A program made the position numbers and the translations under genes. This document shows, one piece after another, positions 4,934-28,024 of a stretch of 64,000 nt of DNA. Positions within the stretch are counted from its first letter, which is position 1. Each line of letters starts with the position of its first letter. This DNA comes from Corythucha ciliata (Eukaryota > Arthropoda > Insecta > Hemiptera > Tingidae), in NCBI GenBank assembly GCA_038030265.1, contig CM075937.1, positions 28,314,198-28,378,197 of the forward strand. Reading direction: 5' to 3'. The notes beneath the pieces are model-generated. The model was not told the origin of the DNA. It saw only the letters and a list, made by a program, of their open reading frames with translations, and did no database searches.

Positions 4934-5003
4934 AACACACGATACTATCCGGACGACGATGGAAGGGCATAGCCCAACACGATTCGAGTTTCGAGAAAAA
5001 ATG

Positions 5004-5076
5004 GCTCTCCGGCGGGATTTGAACCCGCAACCTCTGGATTACCAGTCCAGCACGCTGCCATTTGCGCCACGGAGAC
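5004..5076 (-). tRNA. tRNA with anticodon GGT (Thr by code), copy 1
   Basis: Reads as a cloverleaf: D stem GCGC/GCGT, anticodon stem CTGGA/TCCAG with loop CTGGTAA (anticodon GGT), T stem GCGGG/CCCGC with loop TTCAAAT. The acceptor pairs six bases (TCTCCG with CGGAGA); the next pair would be G-G. A CCA-like end follows, then a T run that would stop RNA polymerase III. GGT for threonine is unusual in eukaryotes, which normally use AGT. The D arm resembles tRNA-Trp and initiator tRNA-Met, so the charging identity is uncertain. Confidence 0.75.
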
Positions 5077-5325
5077 GCCTATGGGAGTCGTACTCCGAGG
5101 GATAAGCTAAGCCGAACCCCACCTAGGTCCATTGTTTCTCGAAACTCTAGGCGCTTCTCCTGATCGGTAAACCACGCCGAATTTAATCTTATCTAGATGT
5201 TGTTAGATTGATATAATGAATAAATCTGTCGCCGGCATTTTAATTACTAAATTAATTAAACTGATATTATCCGGACGACGATGGAAGGGCATAGCCCAAC
5301 ACGATTCGAGTTTCGAGAAAAAATG

Positions 5326-5398
5326 GCTCTCCGGCGGGATTTGAACCCGCAACCTCTGGATTACCAGTCCAGCACGCTGCCATTTGCGCCACGGAGAC
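5326..5398 (-). tRNA. tRNA with anticodon GGT, copy 2
   Basis: Same sequence as the copy at 5004-5076, exactly 322 bases further on, with identical arms, anticodon GGT and trailing T run. Confidence 0.75.
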
Positions 5399-5470
5399 GC
5401 CTATGGGAGTCGTACTCCGAGGGATAAGCTAAGCCGAACCCCACCTAGGTCCATTGTTTCTCGAAACTCA

Positions 5471-5535
5471 CGCGCAAATGGCAGCGTGCTGGACTGGTAA
5501 TCCAGAGGTTGCGGGTTCAAATCCCGCCGGAGAGC
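5471..5535 (+). pseudogene. tRNA(GGT) lacking its 5' acceptor strand
   Basis: Begins inside the D arm (CGCGCAAATGG) straight after spacer sequence, so the 5' acceptor strand is missing. The rest matches the full copies. It marks the point where the array changes direction. Confidence 0.75.
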
Positions 5536-5784
5536 CATTTTTTCTCGAAACTCGAATCGTGTTGGGCTATGCCCTTCCATCGTCGTCCGGATAATATCAG
5601 TTTAATTAATTTACTAATTAAAATGCCGGCGACAGATTTATTCATTATATCAATCTAACAACATCTAGATAAGATTAAATTCGGCGTGGTTTACCGATCA
5701 GGAGAAGCGCCTAGAGTTTCGAGAAACAATGGACCTAGGTGGGGTTCGGCTTAGCTTATCCCTCGGAGTACGACTCCCATAGGC

Positions 5785-5857
5785 GTCTCCGTGGCGCAAA
5801 TGGCAGCGTGCTGGACTGGTAATCCAGAGGTTGCGGGTTCAAATCCCGCCGGAGAGC
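5785..5857 (+). tRNA. tRNA with anticodon GGT, copy 3
   Basis: Full-length copy on the plus strand, identical in the body to the minus-strand copies, followed by a T6 terminator. Confidence 0.75.
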
Positions 5858-6106
5858 CATTTTTTCTCGAAACTCGAATCGTGTTGGGCTATGCTCTTCC
5901 ATCGTCGTCCGGATAATATCAGTTTAATTAATTTACTAATTAAAATGCCGGCGACAGATTTATTCATTATATCAATCTAACAACATCTAGATAAGATTAA
6001 ATTCGGCGTGGTTTACCGATCAGGAGAAGCGCCTAGAGTTTCGAGAAACAATGGACCTAGGTGGGGTTCGGCTTAGCTTATCCCTCGGAGTACGACTCCC
6101 ATAGGC

Positions 6107-6179
6107 GTCTCCGTGGCGCAAATGGCAGCGTGCTGGACTGGTAATCCAGAGGTTGCGGGTTCAAATCCCGCCGGAGAGC
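6107..6179 (+). tRNA. tRNA with anticodon GGT, copy 4
   Basis: Last full copy, 322 bases after the previous one, followed by T6 and the spacer, which stops at the right-hand 12-bp direct repeat. Confidence 0.75.
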
Positions 6180-6494
6180 CATTTTTTCTCGAAACTCGAA
6201 TCGTGTTGGGCTATGCCCTTCCATCGTCGTCCGGATAATATCAGTTTAATTAATTTACTAATTAAAATGCCGGCGACAGATTTATTCATTATATCAACAC
6301 ACGATACGGCTCTTCCTGTTCCAGCCAGCAGATTAAATAAGCATGGTTGAATACATGAATAATTTGTTTTGTATTTTTGGGGCTATTCATGAAAAATGCT
6401 GAACCTTGTATCTGTTAAGCCTTGGTTTCCTAGAAAAGCGGTGCCGTAATATAGCGGTGAAAAAAAAAAAAAAAAAAAAAAAAACTTTTAAATC

Positions 6495-7957: not shown

Positions 7958-9209
7958 ATGTGGGGAGTACCGGTTTCATTATCACACGACAAGCTACAAT
8001 CGCCAATAGTGACAAAAGTGATAGCAAAGGGTAGAGACTTTTTTGAGAGAGAATATCCTTTACATGTTATAGGAACTCTACCTCAAGGTGTTCCTTCTAC
8101 TATCGGAGGAAATCCTGAGCCTGTCTACCTACCCATGACTGGAGATGACATTACCAAACAAATCCAAGTCATGTTCGCAATGCCTTTTGTATTAAGGAGT
8201 TCAGAGTTGGCAATAAGCAATTGCCAATTTCTTACCGGATATCTAGGGGCTCTTTCATCGTTTATCCCTGTCCGAAGACAATATAATCAAGGAATTCAGT
8301 GTGAAGGGTTTCAAAATAGAATTCGTAGACTTCGCAGAATGGTTTCACTATTTAGACCAAGCAGATCCTCAGGTCCGAATCAATACCAGCAACTTGTATA
8401 ACTCAGTTCAAAGTGATTATCTATCCGCAGGTTGTGCGGCGATTGGGATAGGAATTTTACTCTTGTCGAAAAAACTGACTGCAGAGAATGTTGCAAATTG
8501 GACCATCAATCGAATCAGATCTTTTGTCACGGTCTTGGGATTAGAAGGGGTAGTTGATGGTCTTGACCAGTTAACTCCTAATCTTCAGGTCACCAAGAGG
8601 ATGTCAATATTCTCAAGGAGATTGTTTGAAATTAGACGAATGATCTTCCAATCATTGAGAACCTGTCGTCAAACTCCAGGAGTTGTATCCATATTTTCAG
8701 AGATCCTGATCAAGAAATTCATGCATGCGGAGTTGACAAATTATATGCTGGTCATGAAATATATCATAGAATCCAGAATGTATTTGTTATTATAGGGACT
8801 TATTGATCAAGATCTTCAGGTGCCAAACAAAGCATCTGAGGTGTACCTCAAGTTTGGAACAGATGCTCCCTTCTGTAAACTGCTTTTCGAGCAAGAAGCA
8901 CTCAATATTTTTGCTCACGAGAGCATTAAGAGATTTGGTGCCATTTCTAAAATCATCGCTGAGTATTCTGGAATAAGATCACTTGGAAATTACAAGATAT
9001 CAGCGAATAGTGAATTATCTGAGGAACTTAGAGAAACAATACACGCCATAATGGCTGCAGTGACCCATTCTGAATTCACTGCAGCGACTCATGTCAAAAA
9101 TAATTTCTTTTTGGTAAAAGAAAAAGCAAATGATGATTTTTATCATGAAATCAATTCTTCCCAGTATCAGAGAGAAACAGAAACAGAGTATATCCCCCCG
9201 ATCTTATAA
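7958..9209 (+). pseudogene. candidate endogenous viral nucleoprotein-like ORF (unconfirmed)
   Basis: An intronless coding stretch of about 415 codons starts at the ATG at 7958. It needs one frameshift near 8260-8300 and has one in-frame TAG at 8793-8795; otherwise it is open to 9209. The predicted protein is mainly helical and mid-sized, with repeated Leu/Ile-rich segments and scattered basic residues and no membrane segment, which fits nucleoproteins of non-segmented negative-strand RNA viruses. An A-rich tail follows (ATTAG then A18, 9230-9252), as if a polyadenylated mRNA had been copied into DNA. I cannot name a virus family. An unknown cellular retrogene is the alternative. Confidence 0.4.
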
Positions 9210-17249: not shown

Positions 17250-18839
17250 TCTAAACATTGTAAAAATTACAATTGCCTGCGTAGTCTGAGTCACAGTATG
17301 CTACTATTTGGTAGGGAGGTCCTCTCATGTATTGAATTCCTTCGCTTAATGTTCCTTTGAGGTATTTTAATGTCCGTTTCAGATTGACTAGATTTTCACG
17401 CGTTGGGTTTTCTACTTGTCGGCTGCTCATGCCGACTGCATGAGCCAGGTCTGGTCGTGTTTTTGTTGAAATATAGAGCAGACTTCCAACTGCTTCTCTG
17501 AACGGAAATTGAAGTTCAGGATTGTTGTCATTGTCCGAAGGTTTCACTATCGCCTATCGACGAGTGACCATGTTTTGTTCTTAGTCAGAGACTGTTTCTC
17601 TTTTTCGATTGATAGTCGCCATGATGTTTCTCTTCGCCTGAAATAGCTTGATTATACGATAGAAGTGCAGTTTCTTGTATTTCTGGCATCGACTCAAGAT
17701 CTAATTCATAGTCCTGCAATTTTACTGGCAATTTTATCGTTCTGGCTAATCGGGTTTCATCCGGCTTTTCACCTTCTTGACTTGTTGAGGCGTCTTCGTC
17801 GGTAGCATTTTCACAATTTTGGATTTCAGTTTCCTCGTTTCGTTGAGGATTTTTATTGTCATCCTCTGTTTCGACTCCCGAAAGTGAATTTTCTTCAACC
17901 TTCGTCATCACTTTCATCGAAATCAAGAAAAATGGTATTCTTGTTTTCAGGCGATGTGATCTTGTTTGTTCCCTAAAAATATACATCTCTGGACGCTACT
18001 ATTTTACGATTTTCAGAATCCCGCAATCTGTAGGCGTTGGTGGTATAGCCTACAAGAGTGTATTTCTTCGCTCTTGGATCCAGTTTCTTAGTATGGGAAA
18101 GAACTTTCGAGTACACCACAGACCCAAAGATTCTGAGGCGAGACTAGTAAGGTTGTTTTCCAAACCAAAGTTCCGCTGGTGTTGACGTTACGGCCTTCGT
18201 AGGGCTACGGTTTTGAAGATGTGTCGCTGTGAGAACTGCTTCTCCCCACATTTCTTTGTCCAGTTGTGAGTCGAAGAGTAGAGCTCTTGTTTTATTCATC
18301 AGAGACCGTCCGAGTCTCTCTACGTGAGCGTTGAGATGCGGAGTATACGGGGGAGTGTACTCTAGTTCAATGCCTTTTTCGTCGCAGTAATCTTTGAATT
18401 CCTTGGAAACATACTCTCCACCTATCAAGCCTGATGTTTTTTACTTTCAATTTTACCTATCACTTATTTATTTATTTCAATTTTATCTATGTAATTTTTT
18501 AGGTTTTGTTTCACCTCACATTTGCTTCTCAAAAGATATGTCAAAAAAAAAAGTGAGAAATGTCAAAGAAATGTAAAAAAAAAAAGTGAGAGTAATCATC
18601 CATCACGGTCATAAAATAACGATAGTTGTCCCAGGTAGGTGTTTCTATTGGTCCTACCACATCTGTATGAAGAATCTGTAGGGGTTTTACGGCTCGAGTG
18701 CGATTGAAACCGAATGGTTTGCGACAAGCTTTCGCCTTGAGGCAAACTTCGCAATTTTCAATTGATTTCAAGTCAGCGTCGGTGAGTTTCATTCCATGGG
18801 ACATATTTTCCAGTATCTTAAGGTACTTTGGACCCAAGT
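17250..18839 (-). pseudogene. Ty1/copia pol, 3' part (split element)
   Basis: Read leftward on minus: integrase zinc-finger tail (ENCEVCLKAKACRKPF), first Asp (LHTDVVGPI), an AT-rich insert of about 150 bases at 18430-18590, catalytic Glu region (YTPPYTPHLNAHVERLGR), GSVVYSKV with LDPRSKKYTLVGY, an acidic linker, then after a deletion of most of the RT the end of RT and RNase H (TRPDLAHAVG, IVAYCDSDYAG). The 5' continuation lies at 23831-24060, because a Ty3/gypsy element entered here. Confidence 0.85.
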
Positions 18840-18976
18840 TGTTATAATCCTCATACATCGTTATAATCCCCTTCACTTCTTCTCCATGTGTCTCTTCTAC
18901 AATTAATTCCTAATTGTTTAATTATAAATAAATCAGTTCATATTTGGAAATTGATTATGACTATTTGAATATTTCA
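18840..18976 (+). repeat. 5' LTR, 137 bp
   Basis: Identical by eye to the copy at 23694-23830. Contains AATAAA near its end. Confidence 0.9.
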
Positions 18977-20059
18977 ATGGCGACATCGGACGAACAAAAC
19001 GCGGCGTTATTAGCGATGTTGCGATCGCAGAACGTCTCTACAGACTATCGACCACGGTTCCCATCGAGGCTGGAACCATTCGATGAAGATGCAGAAACTT
19101 TCAGCGCCTACATACAACGTCTGGACAATTATTTCGATCTCGCTGACTTGAACGGAGACGAAGACGGAATGGATAAAAAACGCGTTCAAGTACTAATTAA
19201 TTGTTTAGCTCCTAAGCATTTCCAGTTGTTGGTCGATCTCGTTGCTCCTTAGAAACCCTCCACGAAATCCTACAAGGAAATATTAATGATTTTGAAAGAG
19301 CACCTTGATCCTACTCCAAATGAATTGATGGAACAAAACAAATTCTACAGTCGGAACCAACGAGACGGTGAATCCATTCAAATGTATGTAAAAGAGCAAA
19401 ACGTTTAACGTTGAACTGTAATTTCACATGTCCAAATTGCAAAACGCACATCAACGATGTTCATCTCCGCACCCAATTGATACGGGGCCTACTTAATCAA
19501 GAAATTCGCCAAAAATTATTGCTCGAGAAAGACTTGACGTTACAAAAAGCAATAGAAATGGCAATATCAATGGAAACCTCAGAAATAGACGGTAAAAATT
19601 TTCATCTGAGTTCTCAATTAAATAAGGTGAGTGCTAACGTTAAGAGGTCAACCAAAACTCGCTGGCAGAATGAGCAGGGCGTTGAACGGAAATGTTTCCG
19701 CTGTGGGAAAAATTTTCATTTAGCAAATGAGTGTCGTTTTATCAACGCGACTTGCCATAAATGCAAGAAAAAGGGGCATTTAGCCACCGTTTGCAAATCA
19801 TCCAAAAGTTTCAAGGTTAAATCGACTGAGCATCCCTCGACTGATTCGGAACTCGAATCAGATGACAGCAGAAGTTCCATTCATCAGGTTTTCGTTTTAA
19901 ACAGCTCAGAGACATCCGGAAGGGAGACTGACAAAATCATAGTTAAACCTTTCATAAATGGTCGTAAATGTAAAATGGAATTTGACACGGGAGCAGCTGT
20001 TTCCTCCATGTCCCATTCCAAATTTATCAAACGATTCCCTGGAGTTAAAATCGACCGCT
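18977..20059 (+). pseudogene. gypsy gag with two zinc knuckles and start of protease
   Basis: Starts at the ATG at 18977. An in-frame TAG at 19250-19252 and a frameshift near 19400 break it. Later residues contain CFRCGKNFHLANEC and CHKCKKKGHLATVC, two CCHC zinc knuckles that bind nucleic acid in Gag. About 75 codons further comes MEFDTGAAVSSM, the active-site region of an aspartic protease (D-T-G). The protease is cut off at 20060 by the start of another LTR. Confidence 0.85.
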
Positions 20060-20366
20060 TGTAGGGAACGCGAGTTCCCTAGCAACGAGTGTGAGTGGAG
20101 GCGTCTTGTGAGAGATATAAAAAAGAGAGAGTTTTCGTTTTTGCTAAAATACAGAACTTGATTTTGGTTTATTAAAATGACTTGAGTACCTTACATTTGG
20201 CGCTGCGGACAATTTTTTTAAATTTTTTTTATTTTCTTTCGCGCTTGTGGCTGTAATGCCATATAAATCTAAAAGCAAAAGTGCACGAAGAAAGGACAGA
20301 CATGACGAAGACGGGGACTCAACACCAAACGTCCAACGGAAGCAGACTTCAGACGATGAAGTAGAC
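20060..20366 (+). mobile_element. 5' end of a third LTR element: LTR, primer site, start of gag
   Basis: A 136-base stretch (20060-20195) starts TGTAGGGAACGCG and ends CTTACA, like an LTR, and is followed by TTTGGCGCTGCGGAC, which resembles a primer-binding site. An ATG at 20256 opens a basic, Lys/Arg/Ser-rich frame (MPYKSKSKSARRK...), like the start of a Gag. This stops abruptly near 20366, where viral sequence begins. The LTR differs from that of the host gypsy element. Confidence 0.55.
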
Positions 20367-20988
20367 AGGGTTTGTTTCAAGCCGGATCAAGGATGTGTGG
20401 GCATTAGAGGCAACTGTGCTAAAGTCTTCGCCAGGACTGATCCCCTGGGGACGGAGTGAGGAAGTTTCTGTTCCACACTGTGAGACAAATTTACCGTCCA
20501 GAAACCATGATGTATATTCACCAAATACTCCTTCAATGAGGAAAGTCTTAGATGTAGAGAGATTTATGCCCATGAGTTTTAATACACAGTACTCCACCAT
20601 GGCAGCGGCTATGATGTCATTTTTGTTTGCGGCCGCATACACTGAAAGGCTGTCGTCTGACGATCGTAGCGTCCTCACTTTCACTTTGTTATTGTTTTGC
20701 CGTTGCCCTATTACTATGGCCCCAAGAGTTGTTGCTGCCGCGTTCAACATGCCCATCAACATCCCAGGTGACGAGTCGACATAACCGTCATTTATGTATT
20801 CAGCGTTTCTCAGGACCCATGCAGATGTTTTGGGGTTAAATCGTCCAGCATTTTCTGGCGTGTACTCAGGCCTATTGAAGTGCTTGGTCTTCTTATTTGT
20901 GCAGACTGGCCCAGGTCCAAGTGTGATGCGTTTGCAAGTGAGAAAGTAGCAAGTGAGGTTAAATATGCTCTTCATTAACTGAGCTCCT
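20367..20988 (-). pseudogene. endogenous orthomyxovirus-like PB1 polymerase fragment
   Basis: An uninterrupted minus-strand frame (20349-21014, 221 codons) contains an SSDD tetrapeptide, the polymerase motif C form characteristic of orthomyxovirus PB1. It is preceded by a Met/Gly-rich stretch (GMLMGMLN) of the kind placed before motif C in this family, and followed by a K(T/S)F segment and an aromatic, Gly-rich stretch as in motifs D-E. It is only an internal piece (palm, about 200 codons) and could not act as a polymerase alone. Boundaries near 20366 and 20988 are estimated from where the frame stops making sense. The closest group may be the quaranjavirus-like viruses of arthropods, but I cannot test that. 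Confidence 0.75.
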
Positions 20989-20992
20989 GAAT

Positions 20993-22634
20993 TTGTGGGA
21001 CCGACTTCCTCCATACGCCTTGAGAGAAAAAATTGAGAAAGAGCTGAATTCTCTGGAAAAAGATGGAATCATAACTAAAATTCCAAATTCTGAGTGGGGA
21101 ACACCGATAGTGCCAGTCCTAAAACCCGATGGTTCCATTCGTGTCTGTGCCGACTATAAATCAACAGTAAATGACCAGCTACAAAACGAACGCTATCCTA
21201 TTCCTCGGATAGAGGAACTTTTCCACAAAATGCGAGGTGGAGTGTTTTTTACAACGTTGGATATACATAAGGCTTATCTTCATTTGGAAATGGACGATGA
21301 AAGCTCCCTCATCCAAGCCATCAGTACTCACGTAGGTACATTCAAAGTAAATCGGTTAATGTTCGGAGTAAAGGTAGCGCCAAATTTGTGGCAACGTTTC
21401 ATGGACGAAATGCTTACAGGTCTCGAAGGAATCGCTGTTTTCTTCGACGACATTATCATTCAAGGCCGCACAATTGAAGAAACGGAAAAGCGGACTAGAG
21501 CTGTCCTCGATCGGCTATCATCAAACAATTTACATGTTAATAAAGCAAAAAGTAAATTTTTCGAGTTGTCAGTCAAGTATCTGGGACATATCATTGACAA
21601 AAATGGACTTCACACGTCAAAGGAAAAAGTCGATGCAATAGTAAAAGCCGGACGACCAAAAAATACCCATGAACTTCAACAGTTCTTAGGAATGGTAAAT
21701 TACTACTGCCGTTTCCTTCCTAACGTATCCACAAAATTACAACCTTTATACCAACTATTACAAAAAGGAAAAAAATTCCATTGGTCGACCGAGTGTGAAA
21801 ATTCATTCAAATTAATCAAACGTGACATTACTAGTGACAAGGTACTCACACCATATGATCCTAAACTCCCCCTTATCCTTGCCACTGGTGCTTCACCGTT
21901 TGGCCTCTCAGCAATCCTGTCACATAAGTTGCTCGATGGATCTGAAAGACCGATTGCATTTGCGTCCAGATCTCTTTCCAAGACAGAAAGAAAATACAGT
22001 CATATAATCAAGGAAGCTACCGCAATATACTGGGGTGTTACGAAATTTTTCCAATACTGCTACGGTCGAGAATTCACGCTAGTCACTGATAGCAAACCTT
22101 TAGTTTCCATTTTCAACCCTTCAAAAGCTCTCCCTCCACTCACGGCCACGAGAATGTTGCACTATGCTCTTTATCTATCGGGATTCAATTACAAGGTGAG
22201 CTACCGCAAAGCTTCCGACCACGTCAACGTAGATTACTTCTCACGAAAACCACTTCCCGATTTGCCTAGCAACACAATTACTGAATTGCCCATTTTACAA
22301 ATTCAACTCGACAGTCTTCCCGTAACTGCCTCTGACATAGCCGACGCCACCTCAAGAGACCCAGATCTACAAAAGCTACTTAAGACTTTACAGAAAGGAC
22401 TTCCTATTACGGAGCCTGAAGCTTTCAAAGGGCTTGAAAAAGAATTAGCCGTTGAAAGAGGGTGTATCTTCAGAGGTTTACGAGTAGTCATTCCTAAACA
22501 ACAGCAACTACTGATGTTACAAGAATTACATACAGCTCACACAGGCGTCACGAAAATGAAAGAGCTAGCCCGACAATACTGTTGGTGGCCTTCAATTGAC
22601 AAAGACATTAAAAATTTGGCAGCCTCTTGTAATC
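20993..22634 (+). pseudogene. gypsy reverse transcriptase and RNase H
   Basis: RT motifs are clear: KPDGSIRVCADYK, TTLDIHKAYLHLEM, LMFGVKVAP and VFFDDIII, with both catalytic Asps (FFDD). Thumb: YLGHIIDKNGLH, FLGMVNYYCRFLP. RNase H: ATGASPFGLSAILSH, where Gly stands in for the usual first Asp, then FTLVTDSKPLVSIF. The integrase zinc finger starts near 22520 (ELHTAHTGVTKM). A frameshift follows near 22634. The 5' end directly abuts the viral insert. Confidence 0.85.
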
Positions 22635-23653
22635 TTGTAATGTCAATGCCAATAATCCACCGAAAACTCAGCAGTCGTGGATCACATCCGGCCAACCCTG
22701 GGAAAGGCTACACGTTGACCACGCTGGTCCATTCATGAACAGATATTTCCTCATTGTGGTTGACTCTTGCTCCAAGTGGGTTGAAGTCATCATTCAAAAA
22801 CGAATTACTAGCTCATCAACCATAGAAAATCTTCGAGAAATCTTTGCTCGGTTCGGACTACCGAAGGTATTAGTTAGCGACAATGGATCAGCATTTACGT
22901 CGGCGGAATTTAGGACATTTCTTCGATTAAATGGCATTGACCATTTGCTTTCACCCCCCTACCATCCATCTTCCAACGGACTTGCAGAAAAGTTACGTTC
23001 AAACAGTCAAAAAGAAATTGAGAGCAATGGCTAATGAGCCAGGTGACTTACACACAAAATTATGTCGAATTTTGATGCAATTGAGGAAAGTGCCACACAT
23101 GACCACAGGCAAAAGTGCAGCACAGATGCTTTTGAAAAATGATATCAGAGTTCGACTTGATCTTTTGAAGGAAAACCGCGAAAACCGGAGTGATCAAACA
23201 GCGTCAAGCCCTAAGCGTTCTTGCAATGTTGGAGACGAAGTAACAGCTAGGAATTTTTCGAATACGACAAAATGGAAATTCGGAAAAATTGTCGGGAAGG
23301 TAGGAAATTCAATCTATGATGTTGAAATCAACGGGAAGATTCATCGCCGACACATTGATCATCTTCGACGACTACCTAACTCTCCAATTAGAAGTCAGCG
23401 AACAATTCAGCCAGGAAAGGTTACCAAAACAAAGTGTCCACCTACTAGATCCAATGATTTCGACGAAGATGCATCTTTCTTCATATCTCGACCAAGACCT
23501 CCCAATGCTATTTCGAATGAAGACACCTTTCAGCCTTTTACAGCGGAGGAAAGAGAAAGCATAGACTCCAACCAAGAACTTCGCGAACCAACAATCGACG
23601 AACTGCGAAGATCAACACGGATAAAAAGAAAACCCGATTGGCTCCGTTACTGA
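22634..23653 (+). pseudogene. gypsy integrase and tail (two frameshifts)
   Basis: After the frameshift near 22634 the frame gives the first Asp region (LHVDHAGPF), then KVLVSDNGSAFTS (second Asp) and YHPSSNGLAEK (Glu). A second frameshift near 22990 leads into the C-terminal domain, which ends with RSTRIKRKPDWLRY and a stop at 23651-23653. Confidence 0.8.
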
Positions 23654-23693
23654 ACCTCAACCGTCTTGTTTATTTTTCCTTCCCCCGGAAGAT

Positions 23694-23830
23694 TGTTATA
23701 ATCCTCATACATCGTTATAATCCCCTTCACTTCTTCTCCATGTGTCTCTTCTACAATTAATTCCTAATTGTTTAATTATAAATAAATCAGTTCATATTTG
23801 GAAATTGATTATGACTATTTGAATATTTCA
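23694..23830 (+). repeat. 3' LTR, 137 bp
   Basis: Identical by eye to the 5' LTR. Preceded by a C/G-rich tract (CCCCCGGAAGA), not a typical polypurine tract. Confidence 0.9.
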
Positions 23831-24060
23831 CAAGTGTCCGAGTTTTCTGTGCCAGACATCGCTGTTGGAGTTTGAAGCGATCATGGCTTATTCTTGCGGG
23901 GATCCCAGCTTTACGTCGAATAGGCCACAATAATTTTTATTTCCAGTAAAAACAATTTCATTTCCCTGGCTAATTTCGACTTTATCGCCCTCAAAAATTA
24001 CTTTTCCGTCTCTTTTCGTGCTGGCGTTGACCGATAGAATATTTTTGGACAGTTCAGGCA
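23831..24060 (-). pseudogene. Ty1/copia pol, 5' part of the split element
   Basis: Gives LYVPELSKNILSVN, then a Lys-rich segment, then DVWHRKLGHL at the edge of the insertion; the remainder of this pre-integrase zinc finger continues at 18839. The upstream protease and gag are missing, replaced by a SINE-like sequence. Confidence 0.8.
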
Positions 24061-24420
24061 CATACAGGGTGGAAGGAAAGCGCCCCTCGATGGTGTAATG
24101 GATACAATGCTCGCTTCGCAACTCAGCGGGCCTGGGTTCGAATCCAGCCATTGCCCATTACACTATAAGGCTGCGGCGAGCTGTGACACGGCACACTCGG
24201 CGTGTGCGTTCAACAAACCGCGCACCGACTGAAACGCCCGCGAAGTACGGCTCGAAGTGCACAGTTAGATCTGGGTATGGCGTCGCAGCCCAATGGAGGC
24301 TTAGGCGCCTGACGGGTTCAAAGCCCGGCGCCTTTCCCCCCAAAAAAAGGTGGAAGGGGATGAGTGTGACAAAAATGTTTGGGTGATAGTAGGTCTCATT
24401 TGCGACCGAAATCACCATTT
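24061..24420 (+). mobile_element. SINE-like sequence with tRNA-related head
   Basis: A tRNA-like start (about 24085-24155) has D-arm TGGTGTAATGGATA and T-arm CTGGGTTCGAATCCAG, with a T stem one pair out of register. A second T-arm-like piece, GCCTGACGGGTTCAAAGCCC, follows near 24308. I see no clear A-tail beyond a short run at 24342. This looks like a composite tRNA-derived repeat, not a working tRNA. Confidence 0.5.
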
Positions 24421-25209: not shown

Positions 25210-26452
25210 ATTTCCACAACAAGTCGTCCGTATCTACTTTGTCCAAGAAAAAAATTAGGATCCTTCACAGAAAATCAAATACATGCAAGTAAATATGACG
25301 CTATGACAACGATTCGCATTGGAGAACACCTAGGAAGAATTCCTGATGTTTTTTTTTATTTTACTTTTGCCCTCAATGACGTCATTTCTACCTTTCCCCC
25401 CTCGTCTATCGAAATGCATGATCGGACCTTCTTTTTTATATACCTTGGTACCTACCTACTTTTATAAAATAAAAAGTATTTTAAAATGAATCAAAATAGT
25501 GTCTATAATTTTTTTTTTAAACTCTGCATAGCGTCCTGGATTCTGTGCATCAAAACGTTCTATGTAGATGACGATAACCATTTTTTAAAAAAAATAATTA
25601 ACAACACTAAACTTGAGAAGAAAACAGGGAGCCATGGGCAAGCGGAGTTCTATGACGTATAAAATGTGTGTGTGATAATTTTGGGATTTTGATAATTTTA
25701 ACAATCAATATAGCAGTGGAAAGAGCCTCAAACCTAGACCTCTCCTTCTAAACTTAAATGCTATTCGCTGAACGCAAACGCGGACGCGAGAGTTGGCTGA
25801 AATCCGCGCTGCTTCCTGCGCTGCGATCTGCGTTGCGTCCTATGTAGACGGGGCTTTATGGAACAATTCTATATTATGTGATTCACCCGTTATTTTTGTG
25901 TGGTTCTATGGACTGAATTGAACTGAAAGATTGAAAAAAAGCTTGACCGTGTGGTAGTGCTTCGTGCGGTGATATTTTTTTGAAAAAATAAAACAGAGAA
26001 GTAACCGAGACATTTAAGAGGAAAAGGTAAAAGCGTTCTGAAAGATGTAAGCTAAGTAAATAAGAAGTCGTAGTTTATGGTTTCCATGTCCTCAAACATA
26101 AAACGTCCTCGAAATTTAAACTTTAAGGAACTTCGCTTTCATTCCTTATTCACCTAACGCGCGAAGCACGTGATCGCTTGTATATCATGTCGCATGCTTC
26201 ACATTTTAATTACCTACTTTAATGTAACCTGCTTACGTATTCGCTGACTTAAAAATTCTGCGCATCACATTAATGACTTGCTAACGTCATAAAATATTAC
26301 TAATTACATCACTCCCCGGGGGTTTCCCCGGATTCATGTATTTTAATGCATGAAAAAGGGTCGGCTTGTAACAATTCTCACAGTGAAACACGGCAAACAC
26401 CTAGGAGAATTCGCACCGTTAAACGGCAAAGTCACGTGGAACGGAATTTAAA
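25210..26452. other. upstream region of the odorant receptor; no gene
   Basis: AT-rich, no coding sequence. This is where the receptor promoter should be; I see no convincing core element that I can separate from background AT richness. Confidence 0.4.
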
Positions 26453-28024
26453 ATGAAGTTCTTCTTTGACGTTGACCCCGAGGAGGAGGATGCTGTCGCA
26501 AAAGGGAGAAAACTATGCGCTGGCGACTACCCTGCTAAGATCGGCATGTACCCAGGCCTGACCAAGTCTGAATACCCGTGGACAATCGCCAAACTGAGCT
26601 TATTCTTCTTCAACTCCTTCGCCGTGACGGGTCACTTTATTAGTCTGAAATGGGCCTTGAAAAGCGGTGAAATTGACGTCGGCCTGGAGAATACGTTTTT
26701 TACTTTGATGATACTCAGTCACCACGTCATATTCGCATTAGCTATTTTCAGGCGAAGGGTCGTTAAAGCTATGTACCGAAAAGTAGGAGCCGGATTTTTC
26801 ACGTACGATGAACCGATGACGGATGAACAAATGACAGTTTTGAACAGTCGGTCGGCGGCCGTCTTTCTGCTCCGATTCAACCGTGATTTAACCCTTGGAG
26901 GGTGTTTTGCGTATTTTGTGGCCGTGCCCGCCTTGAAAGTTTACGTGACAGGTTCTTGGACCACGGTAACTGGGAAAGAAGGAGAATACCCTTACAACAA
27001 AAATCTTCCTTTAAGAATGCCAGGGGTACTCGAAACGGACACTGCGATTCCATTCATTACTACGGGGGCTGCCCATTTGATTATGGCAACGCATTCAGGA
27101 CTGATCATGCCAACCGCTTCAAATATGTTTCTTGGGCTCAGCATTCAAATTTGGAATCAACTTCAACTCCTGAATTTGTCTGTTAGAAATACATACAACA
27201 GGGCTTGTTACTTGTACAAGAAGAGAGTTCATAGCTCATCACCGATTGATTTTACGTCAAAAGGATTTGAAGAATGTTTGATATATTGTCTCAAAGAGAA
27301 TATCAAACATCACGTAGAGATTGTGAAGTAAAATAGTCAACACCAAGACTAATTCCGTCGCTTTTCACTATGTACTTTTCAGGTTTTACAGAAGTTTCGA
27401 ACATATATTTGCTGGATGGTCATTTTTCCAACTTTTGTCATCCGGAACGATCATAAGTCTTACGACTTACAACGTTTTACAAGTAAAAAACGGTGATGGG
27501 GGGTTTAAAATTTTCTTGGGATGACTCAAAAGAAAACGAGACCTCCTCTTAGGTAGATACTACCGTGGGATTAATCACTTTCGCAGCGGCATCTATGGGT
27601 AAAATCATGCTTCTTACGTTGAACATTCTCCACGCCACAATTTACTGTATGGCAGGACAACGAATAACTAACTTGGTTGGTATCGTACGATTTTATCACT
27701 AACAAAGTGCTCCATTAGTTGTAAAACCCCTTCCCACCCTAATAACTCATAGAGCGAAGACATGGTTCAAGCCTACTATTTTTGCAACTGGAACGACAGC
27801 GGAAGCCGGGAATTCAACAAGGTCCTCTTGCAAGCTCTGACCAATTCAAGGAATCCATTTGTCATCAAAGGATTTGGACTGATTGCCGCGCAAGCTGAAA
27901 CTTTGGTGGACGTAAGTGTCTCAAATATTGGTTCGTAATTCGTTCTGTAATTCATTGATTTTATGGACAGATCCTTAAAACAGCGTTCTCTTTGCTGAGT
28001 TTCGTAAAATTTGTTGTCGAGTAA
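26453..28024 (+). CDS. insect odorant receptor (7tm_6 family), five exons
   Basis: Exons at 26453-27327, 27383-27492, 27587-27675, 27753-27911 and 27971-28024 join in frame to 428 codons plus stop, the usual size for the family. All introns are GT-AG and short (55-94 bases). The start is the ATG in TTTAAAATGAAG. The protein has several hydrophobic segments. The C-terminal part carries family features: RSFEHIFAGW, an aliphatic Cys-containing segment (LHATIYCMAGQRITNL), an Asp-Met-x-x-Ala-Tyr block before a Trp (exon 4), and a final ILKTAFSLLSF. These receptors form ligand-gated channels with the Orco co-receptor in olfactory neurons. Exon 2 and 3 donors are chosen to keep the frame and are the least sure. 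A related pseudogene lies at 33610-34588. Confidence 0.85.

Follow-up and report, generated by a model that had tools for sequence, protein, structure and literature searches.

What placed a piece of an orthomyxovirus polymerase gene inside a retrotransposon of Corythucha ciliata, and is that piece still moving? The locus lies in a stretch of 64,000 nucleotides (the window), part of contig C1 in the 401-Mb, 57-contig assembly that was searched here. An earlier note, written from the letters alone, had proposed that an LTR element captured the viral sequence by template switching within a recently moved gypsy element. Such a capture is most likely what happened, but the capturing element would be another family, E2, and not the outer gypsy. 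We consider it probable that E2 produced a young endogenous orthomyxovirus fragment by a template switch, followed by integration of its LTR end into the gypsy.

A viral polymerase fragment within nested retrotransposons

The features are, in order along the window:

18541-18834, minus strand: copia-like element, left part (rve match of 19.9 bits, below the cut-off of 32.6; frame continuous across the empty site)
18835-18839: CAAGT target duplication, left copy
18840-18976, plus strand: 5' LTR of the outer gypsy, identical to 23694-23830
18977-20059, plus strand: Gag and first half of the protease of the outer gypsy (tblastn with relatives; comparison with sister copies)
20060-20195, plus strand: complete 5' LTR of E2 (136 bp, TGTA...TACA, TATAAA at 20116), its first base exactly at the gypsy break
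20196-20368, plus strand: presumed primer site (TGG at 20198), leader and Gag start (ATG at 20256) of E2; E2 identity ends at 20368
20367-20999 (start at about 20367 or 20369), minus strand: orthomyxovirus PB1 fragment, 211 open codons with SPGMLMGM and SSDD blocks (Pfam PF00602 and PDB matches)
21000-23693, plus strand: RT, RNase H and integrase of the outer gypsy (Pfam RVT_1, RNase H, Integrase_H2C2 and rve; frame broken in the integrase region)
23694-23830, plus strand: 3' LTR of the outer gypsy, identical to the 5' LTR
23831-23835: CAAGT target duplication, right copy
23836-24157, minus strand: copia-like element, right part (frame across the empty site)

The open frame on the minus strand extends from stop to stop over 239 codons (20349-21068). 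Within 20367-20999 the other two frames contain 15 and 16 stops, and none of 5000 base shuffles left the frame of this interval open. A profile search, set beforehand as the check on similarity to PB1, gave a clear match to Pfam Flu_PB1 (E = 4.6e-30, 104.9 bits against a curated cut-off of 26.4), and 16 distinct PDB sequences named RNA-directed RNA polymerase catalytic subunit also matched (best E = 1e-13). The SPG.LMGM.NA and SSDDS columns were invariant in an alignment of 17 proteins; we take the former block to be motif B and SSDD to be motif C of PB1. The antisense frame that the earlier note had singled out for its SSDD and polymerase motifs is thus a piece of an orthomyxovirus PB1. It aligns to profile positions 331-531 of 732, an internal piece rather than a complete gene, and on this coverage enzyme activity is implausible; the fragment probably has no function as a protein. 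Bordered on both sides by chromosomal sequence (E2 and gypsy) on a 56-Mb contig, it is, at the level of the assembly, a non-retroviral endogenous viral element.

The search for protein relatives was limited to lengths of 0.55-1.75 times that of the query, which kept out full-length PB1, and yielded matches at E <= 1 for 25 of 283 candidates, with identities of 35-48% (44% for the top-scoring one). Named relatives include a coleopteran orthomyxo-related virus (38%) and proteins annotated in Pieris macdunnoughi (45%) and Parnassius apollo (47%). The tree of 26 PB1 pieces gives the window piece a provisional place on a long branch beside P0001 and P0020. A scan of IMG/VR with the PB1 alignment returned 22 pattern matches, none of which was confirmed.

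The outer element has the identical 137-bp LTRs bordered by CAAGT that the earlier note described. When the flanks are rejoined with a single CAAGT, a continuous frame results (...WHRKLG, followed across the join by HLGPKYL...); this motif, which we take to be that of copia, gives the split element its label together with the weak rve match. A young Ty3/gypsy copy inserted into the copia-like element and split it. Gypsy identity ends at 20059, in mid-protease, and resumes at 21000 with the start of the RT, which had correctly been placed on the far side of the virus, and 940 bp of foreign sequence lie between. Sister gypsy copies have 342 bp between positions 20059 and 21003, and the missing piece of 339 bp has no match in the window. 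The borders of the viral piece, previously put at 20366 and 20988, were close and were refined to about 20367-20369 and 20997-21000.

Two other observations concern the window at large. Four tRNA-Thr (GGT) genes stand at 5003-6180, two per strand in mirror order and at an equal spacing of 322 bp. A 302-codon open frame at 26423-27331 looks by eye like a membrane receptor; it had no Pfam match at E <= 0.01, and none of 1042 candidate relatives matched at E <= 1.

E2 and the origin of the chimera

An LTR, a presumed primer site and a Gag start adjoin the virus, as the earlier note had seen. The E2 family to which they belong comprises 40 scored matches among 71 candidates (31 were left unscored), and 30 loci including the window were fetched with 1.5 kb on each side, 10 scored loci remaining unfetched. 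Eleven of the 29 fetched sisters match all 306 bases of 20060-20365 at 98-100%, and against these the window has one private change; in L047 and L048 the identity reaches 20368. Three full copies that were fetched (L047-L049; 4366, 4367 and 4368 bp) are flanked by the 5-bp duplications GACAC, TGAAG and GTTGG and contain one long frame each, of 1386, 1386 and 1373 aa, with the domains in the gypsy order PR-RT-RNase H-integrase. Judging by these matches and copies, E2 is a young Ty3/gypsy family. A scan of prokaryote genomes for a 30-base E2 LTR pattern gave no matches, as expected of an animal element. Among the fetched loci, PB1 or gypsy sequence was seen only in the window; the 29 others contained no PB1 within 1.5 kb.

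The window keeps the E2 5' LTR, the primer site and the first 113 nt of gag, and then changes to virus. This is the structure of a chimeric cDNA, with internal E2 sequence joined to virus and the E2 LTR end intact. Packaged RNA of LTR elements lacks U3 at its 5' end. Because the gypsy break coincides with the first base of a full LTR that includes U3, the left join is best read, from this one end, as an integration and not as an RNA switch from gypsy.

We propose that an orthomyxovirus infected a cell of the germ line, where its PB1 RNA would have met the E2 reverse transcriptase. A switch between the viral and the E2 RNA during cDNA synthesis, 113 nt inside gag, would have given a cDNA in which the E2 LTR, primer site and gag start were joined to about 631 bp of PB1. 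The E2 plus strand carries PB1 in the genome (vRNA) sense; the template would have been genomic viral RNA if the switch took place on the minus strand, and viral mRNA if it took place on the plus strand. A gypsy already inside the copia-like element would then have received the E2 LTR end in its protease gene through the action of integrase. The 3' end may have arisen by one-ended integration, repair having closed the aborted cDNA onto the gypsy at the cost of 339 bp of the latter; alternatively, the chimera may have been complete at first and have lost its 3' part later. Transcription from the E2 or the gypsy LTR would run antisense to PB1 mRNA, and might hypothetically feed small RNAs.

Two observations speak against this account. 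The window contains no second LTR or further E2 sequence, so that the E2 3' LTR and a second, matching target duplication are absent. The private changes are also uneven between the gypsy halves, with 6 substitutions and 1 indel in 1083 bp against four sisters (L051, of which part is missing, was left out) and 1 substitution in 1158 bp of the other half against five sisters, a split for which a single simple history does not account.

A second chimera lies on contig C6 (L010:3245-7065). It is an LTR element of 3821 bp with 497-bp LTRs that differ by 6 mismatches and an AGTA duplication, and it consists of LTR, gag start, PB1 in sense orientation and 3' region. Its PB1 pieces match profile positions 348-421 (E = 1.8e-6), 435-609 (E = 1.4e-18) and 615-667 (only E = 0.17), and are 49-51% alike to the window piece in protein over 76 and 102 aa. 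The LTR and leader have 45 matches, including its own two, and belong to a multicopy family. In the C7 sister, the only one with the gag start read, homology to the chimera ends at about L010 4484-4499, 94-109 nt from the gag ATG at L010 4391, and the sister gag continues normally beyond the junction point. From about 5632 the 3' internal region matches the same sister at 78% and 97% in two blocks; the stretch 5517-5630 is unmatched in it. By this comparison with its sister, the C6 element is a two-sided capture with both LTRs. E2 and the C6 retroelement do not match each other, and the two chimeras are independent. In both of them the switch to virus falls 94-113 nt inside gag, which with two cases may be chance.

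A different history would start from a plain E2 copy in the gypsy, where a later double-strand break removed most of E2 and 339 bp of gypsy and was patched with episomal PB1 cDNA. Repair of this kind would produce both PB1 junctions in one step, and it agrees with the few bases shared there (1-2, and up to 3; the 1-2 at the join of E2 and virus were counted by eye against related genomic PB1 copies) as well as with the remaining E2 and the missing gypsy piece being without a match in the window. It requires, however, that E2 inserted in an event of its own and that the later loss, of about 4 kb, by chance halted 113 nt into gag, near the point at which the C6 chimera changes to virus independently. 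We regard this course of events as unlikely, and template switching by E2 remains our preferred reading. More doubtful still is a generalisation from the two loci, that LTR particles repeatedly capture orthomyxovirus polymerase RNA and switch in a narrow zone of gag, at about 94-113 nt, which both chimeras have kept. Two unrelated families would then represent a standing germ-line route that places pieces of RNA viruses directly behind LTR promoters, here antisense to viral mRNA and suited to small-RNA defence.

Copy number, age and the open frame

The expectation that the fragment would be carried with the gypsy, multicopy and still spreading was not borne out. A DNA search of the assembly found the PB1 piece once and only two other matches, at 72% over 202 bp. 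Because the search yields no more than these, the donor was most likely viral RNA and not an existing genomic copy. The gypsy family has 19 matches in the genome including the window; 12 of the 18 other loci, all of which were fetched, hold both sides of the site, and all 12 are uninterrupted (340-342 bp), while 6 do not hold both sides. Neither PB1 nor E2 or an inner LTR occurred in any of the 18 within the stretches fetched. Because the sister loci with both sides are uninterrupted and none carries E2 or PB1, we read the gypsy as the landing site only and not as the capturing element. A search for other copies of the retroelement-virus junctions found none in the 18 other gypsy or the 29 other E2 loci fetched, and there was no Anakin-like amplification, with several copies sharing the same junctions.

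At the protein level, the PB1 profile had nine matches in the assembly. Besides that of the window there is a single match on C6, another on C4 that covers profile positions 17-330, and a group of six on C5. Compared with the window piece, those on C5 are 70-81% alike over 57-90 aa, and a further piece of 30 aa is 50% alike. As a possible genomic donor, a near-identical endogenous copy was sought in the assembly and none was found.

The other loci have features of their own. The six C5 matches (L011-L016; 39.5-40.0 and 60.2-60.4 Mb) are of a lineage related to the window piece; two of the loci agree to 97% over 2.3 kb, and another pair to 99.5% over 1.1 kb, so that duplication at the DNA level is suggested for these at least. 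On C4, L009:4344-5465 is an open frame of 374 codons without stops that covers profile positions 17-328. A Helicase_C match (L016:3944-4543, E = 2.4e-8), presumably to a helicase of the flavivirus NS3 type, adjoins a PB1 fragment in what is possibly a cluster of virus fossils. The frames at 8247-8795 of the window and at L013:1897-2928 are 29% alike over 124 aa (E = 4e-9 in a single comparison) and have no Pfam match; by eye they resemble viral nucleoproteins, and the former is possibly another virus-derived piece in the window.

Had the outer gypsy taken up the virus with its own reverse transcriptase and carried PB1 to new sites, this would explain why the piece sits within a pair of identical gypsy LTRs that have a clean target duplication. 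The 18 other gypsy loci without PB1, the 12 uninterrupted sites among them, the single PB1 copy in DNA and a left break at the first base of another family's LTR all argue against it, and we hold it to be very improbable. An assembly artefact that joined repeats and a viral contig seems just as improbable. Gypsy and E2 are near-identical repeats that assemblers may confuse, and the case is drawn entirely from the assembly, but one break coincides with a canonical LTR end and the other with a join to PB1, which is single-copy. The empty site can moreover be restored exactly, the genome has a second chimera built in the same way, and the gypsy parts carry private differences.

The gag of the outer gypsy contains one stop and one frameshift. 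The stop is absent from the 8 of 9 sisters whose sequence could be located at that position, and the frameshift is likewise absent from the 4 of 9 that could be located at its position; the decay therefore belongs to the window copy. The identical gypsy LTRs bound the age loosely, at 3.6 or 1.1 million years for assumed substitution rates of 3e-9 or 1e-8. Overall, private changes amount to about 0.3% in the gypsy and E2 parts. A neutral PB1 frame would still be open with a probability of 0.66 at 0.5% and 0.44 at 1% divergence, if indels are assumed to be 12% of substitutions. The earlier note had offered recent capture or selection as reasons for the open frame; the divergence agrees with the former, and because it is so low, the latter is not needed. 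Maintenance of the frame as a protein, for which 211 codons without a stop could be cited, is the least probable of the explanations, given a divergence at which a neutral frame can stay open and the short part of the profile that is covered. The PB1 fragment looks like a young, single-copy fossil, and not like a spreading element or a working gene.

Comparison with known systems

PB1 fragments in arthropods, orthomyxovirus sequences in the firefly genome, viral integrations in LTR elements and LCMV-IAP recombinants were already known. Added here is an orthomyxovirus case with junctions at base level, intact sister copies, an uninterrupted target and a second, independent chimera. The origin of many endogenous RNA-virus fragments is argued by association, since they do no more than lie near retrotransposons; here the join itself is kept. 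The locus illustrates how copies of RNA viruses can be left in chromosomes and allows the template-switch model of virus capture to be checked, and it suggests that an orthomyxovirus was captured in the germ line recently.

Endogenous PB1 sequences have been described in Campodea augens (seven fragments with broken frames; PMC6938034), in Catajapyx (PMC6955108, according to which the viral elements have no retrotransposons nearby) and in ixodid ticks (PMC10675110), and Photinus pyralis carries endogenous elements of two firefly orthomyxo-like viruses, for which the relevant passages of PMC6191289 leave the gene unstated. Like these, the window holds a fragmentary orthomyxovirus gene in a host chromosome; in the window the frame is open and the join to an LTR element is preserved. 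In mosquitoes, viral integrations are enriched at Ty3/gypsy elements and AeBunya1 is embedded in a full-length Pao-Bel element (PMC5497376), which differs from our case in both superfamily and virus; the species rows shown there contain no orthomyxovirus integrations.

Anakin, a chuvirus glycoprotein captured by BEL-Pao elements (PMC7642597), is likewise an RNA-virus gene within the boundaries of an LTR element. As described there it is a multicopy glycoprotein gene, whereas the window has one antisense copy of a polymerase fragment in a truncated element. The complex LTR elements of the Triticeae have been attributed to template switching (PMC1950507), the step that they would share with the window, but as reported they are plant fusions of element with element and involve no virus. 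When LCMV recombined with IAP (work of Geuking et al., recounted in the review PMC3205384), cDNA of an RNA virus became linked to an LTR retrotransposon and entered the chromosomes of the host. The window likewise combines RNA-virus cDNA with an LTR element in a chromosome; according to that review the LCMV case was observed in mice and in infected cell culture, with an arenavirus as the virus and a mouse IAP as the element, whereas the window preserves, as a genomic fossil, an orthomyxovirus joined to a Ty3/gypsy element inside another retrotransposon.
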